Assembly: GCA_030524225.1 (NCBI GenBank)
Contig: JAUNGV010000020.1
Coordinates: forward strand, 1 to 44,277
Reading direction: 5' to 3'
DNA from: Eubacteriales bacterium
GTDB taxonomy: Bacteria; Bacillota; Clostridia; Lachnospirales; Lachnospiraceae
Length of the DNA: 44,277 bases
Both the position numbers and the translations under genes were made by a program. Below, one piece after another: positions 4,809-44,277 of the stretch. The notes under the pieces are model-generated. The model did not search any database, was not told the origin of the DNA, and was given only the letters and a program-made list of their open reading frames with translations. The first letter of the stretch is position 1, and each line of letters starts with the position of its first letter.

Positions 4809-5732
4809 ATGGCAGGTATAGCTGTAAAGGGGCGGGGAAAGCAGAAAATAAAGCCGAGAGATCTGGCGGTTACGATTGCGTTTTTGGCGCCGGCAATTCT
4901 GATCTGTATTGTGTTTATTATTTATCCTGTTCTGGACACGGTAGAATTGTCCTTTAACAAGTGGAACGGGATGTACGGTGTGCCGGAGGAGTTCGTCGGG
5001 CTGGAGAATTATCAGAAGATCCTGAGTGATAAGCTGTTCTGGAATGCGATGCTCAACAGCGTCTATTTTATGATTGGCGGTTTTCTGGTGCTGATGCCGC
5101 TGGCTTTTGGTCTGGCGCTGCTGGTCACTTCCAAGATCAGGGGAACCAGTTTTTTCAGAACGTGTTATTTTCTCCCGGTTATGCTGGGGACAACGGCAGT
5201 GGCTCTGATGTGGACGTTTATCCTCAATCCTAATTACGGTCTTCTTCACACGATTTATAATATGACGGGCAATACCAGTTCGATTCCGGATGTGCTCTCG
5301 ACAAAGACACTGAATGTCTGGGTTGTCGTTCTGGTAAACGAGTGGATGTATGCAGGTTATAATATGCTGATTTTTGCAGCGGGGCTTGTTGCAATCCCGG
5401 AGGACATCAATGAAGCGGCAATGCTGGACGGGGCGACAGGATGGCAGAGAATCCGTTATGTGACGATTCCGCTGATGAAGAATTCGTTCAAGGTGTTCTC
5501 TATTTTGTGTATTACGGGATGCCTGAAGGTATTCGATATTATCTGGGCGATGACGAGAGGAGGTCCGAACGATGCCAGCTCCACGCCGACCATTATGCTC
5601 TATTCTCAGGGCTTTTCCTACAAGCTGTTCGGGCGAAGCAGCGCTTACGGCGTTGTCCTGCTTGTACTGGGAGTGGGACTGAGCGTGCTCTGCAACAAAG
5701 TGTTTGCGGAGGACAAGGAGCTGAAGGCGTAG
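4809..5732 (+). CDS. Carbohydrate ABC importer permease 1 (MalF/UgpA type)
   Basis: Inner-membrane permease of the CUT1 sugar importer family, 307 residues with about six hydrophobic helices. The cytoplasmic EAA loop that docks the ATPase reads EAAMLDGATGWQRIRYVTIP, near residues 203-222. An upstream in-frame ATG at 4749 exists, but the ATG at 4809 has GGAGGT six bases before it and gives the family's usual basic N terminus followed at once by the first membrane helix. It pairs with the permease at 5953, though the two are separated by 220 bases that hold a dispersed structured element. Confidence 0.93.
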   Translation: MAGIAVKGRGKQKIKPRDLAVTIAFLAPAILICIVFIIYPVLDTVELSFNKWNGMYGVPEEFVGLENYQKILSDKLFWNAMLNSVYFMIGGFLVLMPLAFGLALLVTSKIRGTSFFRTCYFLPVMLGTTAVALMWTFILNPNYGLLHTIYNMTGNTSSIPDVLSTKTLNVWVVVLVNEWMYAGYNMLIFAAGLVAIPEDINEAAMLDGATGWQRIRYVTIPLMKNSFKVFSILCITGCLKVFDIIWAMTRGGPNDASSTPTIMLYSQGFSYKLFGRSSAYGVVLLVLGVGLSVLCNKVFAEDKELKA

Positions 5733-5816
5733 GTGGAAAATTCGGGACAGCGTTTCCGGGACATAAGTTCCGGACTCGAATTTTGATCGCGCATCGAAGA
5801 AAGGCGGATTTGTAAA

Positions 5817-5952
5817 GATTGAAAAATAAGTTCGATAGCTTATTTTCAATCCCGGGCTTTAGGCTGGAGCGTCACAAAGCTCGAGAATGACAGACGCGAA
5901 TTGGAGATTCGCGTCGCCGCGTCGCGAAAATCGCTCCGGAATTGAGGTAACT
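5817..5952 (+). repeat. Dispersed structured leader element, copy A
   Basis: An element of about 135 bp between two permease genes, nearly identical to copy B at 38845-38982 (minus strand). It contains four pairings. Hairpin 1: GATTGAAAAATAAG (5817-5830) with CTTATTTTCAATC (5839-5851). Hairpin 2: CGGGCTTT (5853-5860) with AAAGCTCG (5876-5883). Hairpin 3: GACGCGAAT (5893-5901) with ATTCGCGTC (5907-5915). Fourth: CTGGAGCG in the loop of hairpin 2 (5864-5871) can pair with CGCTCCGG (5932-5939) as a pseudoknot. The element ends in the ribosome binding site GAGGT (5944-5948) of the next permease, so it probably acts in the mRNA on translation of that gene. It is not a family I can name. Confidence 0.75.
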
Positions 5953-6810
5953 ATGGAAGAAAACACAGTGGTAAAAAAGAATAAGAAAAAGGTCAGGGTT
6001 GGCACGATACTGCTGTATGTGTTTGCGATTTTCTGGGTATTGTGCACTCTGTTTCCGGTGTTTATTACCGTACTCTCTTCGTTTAAATCAAAGTCGGAGA
6101 TTTATTTGAATCTTCTGGCTCTTCCGCAGGAATGGCTGATTTCCAACTATGTCTCTGCCAACAGCACGGCGCATGCAATGCGTACCATCGGAAACTCCCT
6201 TCTGGTGGCGTGCCTGACGACGATTGCGAATACGGTAGTCGGTATGTTGGCGGCATACTCGCTGTCCCGGAAAACATACGGATTTTTGAAATATGTCTAT
6301 GTGTTTTTTATGATCGGGGTTATGGTTCCAGTACACTGCACACTGATTCCGATCAACAATCTCGCAACCGCACTGAACGCTAAAAACAATCTGTTTTTTC
6401 TGATTACGGTGTATGTGGCGTTTAATATGTCACAGGCCATCTTCCTGTATGTCGGGTTTATGAACGGGATCAGCAGAGAACTGGATGAAGCTGCGATTAT
6501 AGACGGCTGCAGTAACTGGTCGCTGCTTTGGAGAATACTGTTCCCGGTCTGCAAGCCGATTGTGGCGACGGAAGCTATTTTCATTTTCATTTCAGGGTAT
6601 TCCGAACTGGTATTTTCCATGATCCTGATGACGGATGACAAGCACTTTACGGTCTCCCGGGCGATGTTGAATTTCTCGTCGGTGCATTCTCAGGATATCG
6701 GGCCGCAATTTGCGTTTGTCGTTATGTCGGTTATCCCCATGTTCCTGATTTATGTGTTGTTCCATAATCAGATTGAAAAGGGAATGCTCTCAGGCGCGAT
6801 TAAAGGATGA
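5953..6810 (+). CDS. Carbohydrate ABC importer permease 2 (MalG/UgpE type)
   Basis: Second membrane subunit of the same CUT1 importer, 285 residues with six hydrophobic segments and EAA loop EAAIIDGCSNWSLLWRILFP. The ATG at 5953 follows GAGGT and a short spacer. An in-frame ATG at 5887 would place 22 residues inside the structured repeat element upstream and is therefore rejected. Its translation signals lie inside that element, so this subunit may be controlled separately from permease 1. The first fucosidase begins 49 bases downstream. Confidence 0.93.
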   Translation: MEENTVVKKNKKKVRVGTILLYVFAIFWVLCTLFPVFITVLSSFKSKSEIYLNLLALPQEWLISNYVSANSTAHAMRTIGNSLLVACLTTIANTVVGMLAAYSLSRKTYGFLKYVYVFFMIGVMVPVHCTLIPINNLATALNAKNNLFFLITVYVAFNMSQAIFLYVGFMNGISRELDEAAIIDGCSNWSLLWRILFPVCKPIVATEAIFIFISGYSELVFSMILMTDDKHFTVSRAMLNFSSVHSQDIGPQFAFVVMSVIPMFLIYVLFHNQIEKGMLSGAIKG

Positions 6811-38844: not shown

Positions 38845-38982
38845 TGATTACCTCCATTCCGGAGCGATCTTTGCGACGGGGCGACGCAAATCTCCAATTT
38901 GCGTCTGCCATAATCGAGATTTGTGACGCTCCGGCACAAATCCCGGGATTGAAAAATAAGCGATCGGGCTTATTTTTCAATC
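38845..38982 (-). repeat. Dispersed structured leader element, copy B
   Basis: Minus-strand copy of the element at 5817-5952, located between the VTC and DUF4956 genes and ending in the latter's ribosome binding site. Hairpin 1 is a perfect 14-bp stem (38982-38969 with 38960-38947, loop CCCGATCG). Hairpin 2 is CGGGATTTGTG with CACAAATCTCG, hairpin 3 is GACGCAAAT with ATTTGCGTC, and CCGGAGCG pairs with CGCTCCGG. Compared with copy A, a C-G pair has become A-T in hairpin 2 and a G-C pair has become A-T in hairpin 3, so pairing is kept. Confidence 0.78.
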
Positions 38983-39010
38983 TTTTCCTCCTTGTTGGTA
39001 TCGCGCACTC

Positions 39011-44050: not shown

Positions 44051-44085
44051 GATTGAAAATAAGCTCGATCGCTTATTTTTCAATC
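44051..44085 (+). repeat. Dispersed structured leader element, hairpin 1 only (copy C)
   Basis: GATTGAAAATAAG (44051-44063) pairs with CTTATTTTTCAATC (44072-44085) around loop CTCGATCG. It matches hairpin 1 of copies A and B, including the CCC that follows. Here the rest of the element is absent: the hairpin is followed after 15 bases by GGAGG and the ATG at 44112. Same orientation relative to the gene as the other copies. Confidence 0.75.
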
Positions 44086-44111
44086 CCAGCATTTATGACG
44101 GAGGATAGCAG

Positions 44112-44277
44112 ATGCGATACCTTTCAGTCACTGAAGTAGCAAAAAAATGGGATGTATCGGAACGCAGTGTTAGAAATTACTGTGCTAAGGGACGTGTGAA
44201 TGGTGCGTTTCTTACCGGCAAAACCTGGAACATTCCTGAAAATGCAGAAAAACCGGAGCGTACCAACAAGAGAAAAG
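44112..44277 (+). CDS. Helix-turn-helix protein, N-terminal part (3' end outside window)
   Basis: 55 codons are visible and the frame is open at the window edge. YLSVTEVAKKWDVSERSVRNY is a MerR/excisionase-type winged helix (split: YLSVTEVAKKW, then DVSERSVRNY), followed by GRVNGAFLTGKTWNIP, the wing pattern of HTH_17 domains. Such domains head Fic proteins, excisionases and other regulators; the rest of the protein is needed to say which. ATG 44112 follows CGGAGG. The leader carries hairpin copy C. Confidence 0.75.
   Translation, partial: MRYLSVTEVAKKWDVSERSVRNYCAKGRVNGAFLTGKTWNIPENAEKPERTNKRK

Follow-up and report, generated by a model that had tools for sequence, protein, structure and literature searches.

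A small structured element of Lachnospirales that probably inserts between Shine-Dalgarno sequence and start codon

Why do the 136 bases between two permease genes recur before an unrelated gene? The question arises from a stretch of 44,277 nucleotides (the window, by which we mean the whole of it), one contig of a 2.9-Mb, 127-contig draft genome from the Lachnospiraceae that is 81% complete. An earlier note on this DNA saw in the sequence a candidate new family of mRNA leaders; failing that, it suggested a small mobile element that selection had equipped with a start signal. Our analysis finds the alternative a better fit than a family of regulatory leaders. To judge from its sequence, the element is an RNA structure with three covarying hairpins (H1–H3) and a pseudoknot; it measures about 120–150 bp and appears to be an element of the Lachnospirales. 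We think it probable that this is a small non-autonomous mobile element, inserted in the sense direction between the Shine-Dalgarno sequence (SD) and the start codon, where the pseudoknot would shield a new SD. It is apparently a new family among the small interspersed repeats of bacteria.

Each of the two full copies in the window faces the next gene, and both lie at the positions first reported. The unit runs in the order H1 (long and A+T-rich), H2, H3 (loop TGGAG), the strand CGCTCCGG, SD, and start codon, so that all the parts first described, including GGAGCG in the H2 loop, are present. Copy A (5817..5952, forward strand) lies between two ABC permease genes, both BPD_transp_1. Its H1 (5817..5851, from the fold and direct reading) has a candidate start codon, TTG, at its foot (5819-5821), with no clean SD upstream. 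H2 (5853..5883) carries the loop CTGGAGCGT at 5864-5872, within which covariation places the 5′ pseudoknot strand CTGGAGCG (5864..5871). H3 (5893..5915, loop at 5902-5906) is followed by the 3′ pseudoknot strand CGCTCCGG (5932..5939, from covariation), the SD GAGG (5944..5947), and the ATG at 5953. Copy B (38845..38982, reverse strand, as are all its parts) has a VTC-domain gene on one side and a DUF4956 gene on the other. It comprises H1 (38947..38982, from the fold), H2 (38915..38945) with the loop CCGGAGCGT at 38926-38934 that contains the 5′ pseudoknot strand (38927-38934, from the fold), H3 (38883..38905, from the fold), the 3′ strand CGCTCCGG (38859..38866, from covariation), and, at the element's 3′ end, the SD GGAGG (38851..38855), ahead of the DUF4956 start codon at 38844-38842. 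Immediately 5′ of copy B stands a second SD-like stretch, AGGAGGAA (38985..38992), which we read as the gene's original SD.

The two units, of 136–138 bp, are 87% identical; the recurrence is real, but to call it almost unchanged was generous. Both fold better than shuffled sequences (copy A, z −3.3, with 1 of 200 shuffles as good; copy B, z −5.4, with 0 of 200). To these we add a reduced third copy near the contig end (44051..44114, forward strand), in which sequence reading places H1 at 44051-44085, GGAGG at 44100-44104, and ATG at 44112. It suggests that H2 and H3 can be lost while H1 and the SD are kept. A TATACT-like stretch lies upstream of this reduced copy, which has its own SD and ATG, and the candidate ORF that follows looks helix-turn-helix-like by eye.

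The structure is upheld by covariation. Within the source genome, 95.7% of the cells of the four helices, pseudoknot included, are standard pairs; double changes occupy 25 cells, where shuffles give 5.5. For the pseudoknot taken separately, 97.0% of cells are paired, and nearly all of its changes are one-sided. Between genomes both the hairpins and the pseudoknot covary. Across 85 copies in named genomes, in an alignment fitted to the structure, H1–H3 contain 445 double-change cells compared with 123 after shuffling, spread over 29 of 35 pairs; six H2 pairs are invariable because the loci were collected by a pattern containing them. The pseudoknot strands of different genomes read CGGAGCG/CGCTCCG, CGAAGCG/CGCTTCG, CGGGGCG/CGCCCCG, GCCTGAGC/GCTCAGGC, and GTCGAAGCGC/GCGCTTCGAC. 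For a wider comparison, 285 of 311 matches were kept (overlaps and stretches <95 nt being dropped), H2 was located in 259, and 256 of these were left after identical rows were removed. In the 154 copies outside the source genome, a copy's loop matches its own strand by 6.27 Watson-Crick pairs, as against 5.15 when permuted (0/5000). At least six pairs are formed in 68/102 copies of the source genome and in 130/157 copies elsewhere. The pairing of the H2 loop with the strand before the SD, which the earlier note had proposed, is thereby supported.

The same note suggested that the pseudoknot may free the SD, because CTCC in its 3′ strand could otherwise pair with the SD. RNA folding cannot model a pseudoknot directly, and we instead set its two strands aside. 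When they were barred from other pairing, predicted mean SD accessibility over 51 copies rose from 0.33 to 0.58, whereas masking eight neighboring bases as a control gave 0.25; copy by copy, the predicted value went up in 30 and down in 5. Folding predictions thus favor the proposal in general, but not in the copy for which it had been called clear: the minimum-energy fold of copy B does pair CTCC with the SD, yet its accessibility is 0.49 both before and after the strands are set aside. We treat a switch between SD and anti-SD as only a possibility, because copies of the type found in genome G021 keep the pseudoknot (GCCTGAGC/GCTCAGGC) in a different SD context.

A covarying pseudoknot that adjoins the SD, and on which predicted SD exposure depends in those 30 of 51 copies, could belong to a true cis-regulatory family, in which one signal (a ligand, a protein, temperature, or an sRNA) acts through the pseudoknot on many genes and the spread is useful. 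That most copies are sense-oriented and in fixed register also favors this explanation, and covarying RNA structure upstream of genes is what a riboswitch or leader would present. However, the letters of the pseudoknot vary between genomes while still pairing, which leaves no obvious conserved ligand pocket, and several further observations below bring us to regard this explanation as improbable.

The placement of copies relative to genes and strands is far from random. One source-genome set comprised 128 matches, or 120 once 8 short ones (<60 nt) were removed; 102 of these 120 pass a first start test. In a separate loose test, which accepts a start between −30 and +45 of the match end, the fractions are 102/112 copies against 344/1120 random positions in the source genome, and 133/163 against 372/1630 in other genomes. 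For a stricter test, 6 reverse-strand palindrome hits were removed by hand from the 120, which left 114, and the pseudoknot strand was located in 109. In 97 of these 109, an SD follows together with an ATG or GTG, 9–18 nt after the pseudoknot strand, that opens an ORF of at least 50 aa. Random same-strand positions pass in 166/3270 cases and opposite-strand positions in 14/1090. On the upstream side, 77/95 copies have the end of a same-strand stop-to-stop frame, 100 codons or longer, no more than 250 nt away, and 50/95 have one within 60 nt (counts taken without a control), which fits copies lying inside operons.

The downstream genes that could be identified share no common function. Those named by model encode a permease, DUF4956, homoserine succinyltransferase, glucuronate isomerase, polyprenyl synthetase, UvrC, HIT, IlvD, GreA, CoaD, 16S cytidine-1402 methyltransferase, MTA/SAH nucleosidase, CysK, PyrD, TrpD, and S-ribosylhomocysteine lyase. 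A riboswitch would be expected to serve one pathway, and a cis-regulatory family is hard to reconcile with targets so unrelated.

Nor is the element conserved at orthologous genes, as a riboswitch should be, at any of the four genes that we examined. At metA, 29 of 29 other members of the genus examined have no element, and several of these sites keep the same upstream gene, which we take to be DNA ligase from its reading frame, followed by one SD (for example GGGAGGTAACTATTC-ATG at L127). Over the loci for metA, DUF4956, and ispA together, the covariance model finds the element in 1 of 70; at ilvD, there are weak matches in 2 of 29 loci (G010 and G062). These loci represent 29 of 37 other genomes for metA, 29 of 36 for ispA, and 29 of 33 for ilvD; for DUF4956, they are the best 12, by score, of 29 fetched loci outside the source genome. 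That most of the orthologous loci examined in congeners are empty argues further against a cis-regulatory family.

Close relatives differ in occupancy. The single match among the 70 loci comes from G021, which is 99.9% identical to G035 at the locus and differs from it by a degenerate copy of ∼135 nt within the 3′ end of the upstream neighbor of ispA, presumably xseB from its position. Genomes G003 and G013 are 99.2–99.6% identical at two loci elsewhere. Two copies were found in G003, and G013 differs at each of these sites, whose flanks are 91–95% identical. At the first site, where the G003 copy comes after the end of an ORF of ∼500 codons, G013 has no element, and no clear duplication is seen; this copy does not precede a long ORF, since the frame of the ATG after it runs for just 4 codons in G003 and 20 in G013. 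At the second, G013 keeps the H1 hairpin only, followed by an SD and ATG, and looks like an internal-deletion derivative. These differences show gain or loss, not mechanism, and they are not clean textbook insertions. A near-identical copy precedes the same gene, which we take to be pyrG, in G024 (L050) and G007 (L205), and an open frame extends out of the element region into that gene; some insertions are therefore old enough to be shared, or the site is a hot spot.

How far has the element spread? BLASTN with copy A gives 42 matches in the source genome, both full window copies included (40/151 candidates scored), and a covariance model built from 37 copies of that genome gives 144 at E ≤ 0.01 (150/1821 first-look candidates scored). 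A draw of relatives has the element in 21 of 61 genomes. Apart from the source itself, these comprise 19 of 36 congeners, while the other families of the order contribute 1 of 24 genomes. Counts per genome among congeners are patchy, from 0 to 36. Under filters stricter than in that draw, 26 of 392 genomes match at the level of the order, in 18 of 174 genera and two families; at the level of the class, likewise with stricter filters and with a model built from the source genome, 4 of 391 match, all in the source's family. A 21-base pattern occurs in at least 118 stretches of named genomes. The 80 of these that are listed, and that we used, carry titles such as Lachnospiraceae, Acetatifactor, Eisenbergiella, Roseburia, Lachnospira, and Fimimorpha and are mostly metagenome-derived drafts; the labels of some others are broad or odd (Clostridium, Bacillus, Eubacteriales).

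Some copies are tandem or stand right after the 3′ end of another (L028, L035, L037, L056, L061, L204, and L215), and such copies include some in G008, G010, G014, and G018. One copy, at L022:1650-1866 on the reverse strand, has ∼70 nt inserted in H3; the gene after it is presumably gatC. One exact element pattern had 0 matches among viral contigs, and BLASTN of copy B had 0 among plasmids. The same query gave three weak matches to unannotated fecal contigs labeled "Bacteriophage sp." (L459, MT836788.1; MT837007.1; and MT838414.1), of which one, when examined, carried no features. They could stem from bacterial DNA among virome sequences or from a copy that a phage truly carries.

What remains of the proposed leader family is a structured element placed as an mRNA leader; the unrelated genes, the mostly empty orthologous sites, and the patchy copy number speak against a regulatory family of the usual kind. 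Many dispersed copies (144 matches of about 145 nt each), with no room for a transposase, are instead a property of MITEs. The element could be a DNA-level repeat of the REP or MITE type; on that view the RNA fold is incidental, the hairpins matter to transposition, and selection keeps just those insertions after which a usable SD remains. The patchy high-copy spread agrees with this, as do the strongly palindromic H1, the H1-only and degenerate forms, and the third of source-genome copies whose pseudoknot falls short of six pairs. However, the covarying pseudoknot joins a loop to a strand that lies tens of bases off, a pairing for which a DNA cruciform has no use, and selection alone should leave more copies in dispensable places or other orientations than is compatible with 97 of 109 preceding start codons in sense. 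We rate this explanation slightly below the cis-regulatory one. H1 is a hairpin at the element's 5′ end only, and direct reading finds no terminal inverted repeats, the 5′ end AGATTGAAAAATAAGC not being the inverse of the 3′ end CGCTCCGGAATGGAG.

Directly 5′ of most copies stands a second SD-like stretch, present at copy B and missing from copy A; most copies thus keep an SD beyond the other end as well, and the mobile-element alternative of the earlier note had not included this. H1 mostly begins A-G-N-N-T-G-A, and an SD-like motif occurs upstream of its NTG, at start-codon spacing, in 48 of 55 source-genome copies and 87 of 123 others, as compared with 222 of 1100 (20%) and 427 of 2460 (17%) random windows. 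Most copies thus resemble an initiation region cut in two: on the left, a putative native SD is joined to an NTG of the element, and on the right, the element's SD precedes the native start codon. At several genes a stretch ending in TGCGG precedes the upstream SD (L010, L016, L019, L020, L066, and L069) and is like a small hairpin in some, of the type GCAGCAAGCTGCGG; the source genome may have here another SD-linked motif, of a simpler kind.

A MITE should have a target-site duplication, and in the source genome the two ends of the element do share sequence. Among the 54 source-genome copies with a recognizable H1 start that we used here, the longest stretch shared between the ends averages 5.69, versus 4.87 when permuted (0/20000); without the 4 preceded by another copy, the values are 5.56 and 4.77 (0/20000, n = 50). 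In the latter set, 14 of 50 copies repeat beyond the element the 4 nt that directly precede it, where 5.6 are expected (1/20000); for the 3 nt directly before it, the count is 19 of 50, where 11.4 are expected (119/20000). In the other genomes, permutation within each genome gives 4.85 versus 4.63, which is not significant (447/5000, n = 71); free permutation outside the source genome gives 0/5000 (n = 120) but pools genomes whose SD habits differ. Long exact end repeats do occur in some copies outside the source genome (L350, L355, and L282). In the source genome, the end repeats look like the product of a short duplication with the SD inside it, and such duplicated SD and spacer letters speak against a cis-regulatory account. 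Compared with the upstream SD, the 3′ sequence AATGGAG varies far less, which indicates that it is partly the element's own and not pure duplication, and that the element itself also brings an SD.

An NTG-A at SD spacing also raises the prospect of translational coupling, in which ribosomes start at the upstream SD and the H1 NTG, read through the element, and control the downstream start. C is rare as the first letter of NTGA (3/134 copies that have NTGA; 27 have none), and 26 of 47 source-genome copies and 33 of 87 others leave the NTG frame open as far as the SD region, whereas the other two frames are open in 0 and 0 source-genome copies and in 0 and 4 others; because copies share descent, these counts are not independent. 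Against such a leader ORF, the NTG frame closes early, within H1 or H2, in many copies (14/47 and 43/87), and its phase to the gene is not conserved, an in-phase open frame occurring in a minority of copies (phase was read in the 61 with a recognizable H1 start). A conserved reading frame from the element into the gene was rejected as a general rule, since the phase varies. We hold a leader peptide to be a secondary possibility, and coupling to be, by a small margin, the least probable of the explanations weighed here.

We return to a mobile element that splits initiation regions. Insertion would fall between the native SD and the start codon and duplicate the SD; the element would supply the native SD with a start codon and the native start codon with an SD. 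In the mRNA, the H2 loop would pair with CGCTCCGG and so keep the anti-SD-like CTCC strand off the new SD. If insulating the new SD is the main role of the pseudoknot, the insertion would be tolerated and the downstream gene still translated.

Small bacterial repeats are usually viewed as intergenic passengers; here, the most sensitive bases of a gene appear to be occupied. The element appears to bring its own repair, in the form of an RNA pseudoknot and its end sequences. If this is right, a mobile element can colonize housekeeping operons at little cost, and the element shows one origin of independent SDs inside operons. The ∼100 genes that carry it in one genome, together with matched empty sites in relatives, would then form a natural series for the effect of an SD-adjacent pseudoknot on translation. 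A bolder version seems to us unlikely: a new class of mobile element that recognizes SD, spacer, and start codon, perhaps at the RNA level, that splits them with both halves left functional, and that has left ∼100 genes of the source genome sharing one pseudoknot switch. Were it true, a translational regulon that includes housekeeping genes would have been built by transposition, and the element would be a bacterial counterpart of a SINE.

Has the element been described before? The earlier note knew of no Rfam family of this shape, and the searches agree. The window had no match at the Rfam gathering score, a permissive E-value search of 5700-6010 returned two chance-level hits (best 1.3), and eight copy-bearing loci from several genomes gave nothing on the element at the gathering score. 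We therefore rejected every Rfam 15 family, none of which matched the element above its curated threshold. In genome G021, a Clostridiales-1 RNA (RF01699, 113 bits) adjoins a copy at L053:1719-1886 (reverse strand) without lying on it. In the literature, judged by title or the start of the abstract among the matches listed, we saw no description of a repeat in Lachnospiraceae that carries or splits an SD.

It is useful to compare the element with systems that are known. In preQ1-type and SAM-II riboswitches, which act on translation, a pseudoknot strand adjoins the SD, as it does here; the element differs from them in standing before unrelated genes with no common pathway, in being missing from most orthologous loci examined, and in having no Rfam match. 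It departs from riboswitches by its lack of gene coherence and from MITEs by its lack of terminal inverted repeats. The chromosomal repeat bcr1 of the Bacillus cereus group resembles our element in length and copy number, and its RNA fold is conserved and its traits are those of a mobile element. To our knowledge bcr1 has no link to SDs or start codons.

The BOX, RUP, and SPRITE repeats of Streptococcus pneumoniae are small, interspersed, and numerous, with co-transcribed folds that may affect neighboring genes (PMC3049150). Our element shares with them a Firmicute host, many copies, and RNA folds. In the parts of that source available to us, however, they are not described as lying between SD and start codon or as supplying SDs (PMC3049150), and our element has a covarying pseudoknot and no terminal inverted repeats. 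The Rickettsia palindromic elements (PMC10969869) and the enterobacterial RU units (PMC2759123) are likewise small, palindromic, and mobile, and according to the portions consulted they can carry an open frame across themselves; in our element, a frame open in the phase of the gene occurs in only a minority of copies. As described there, those sequences insert within ORFs or intergenic regions (PMC10969869, PMC2759123), whereas the place of ours is the translation-initiation region itself.
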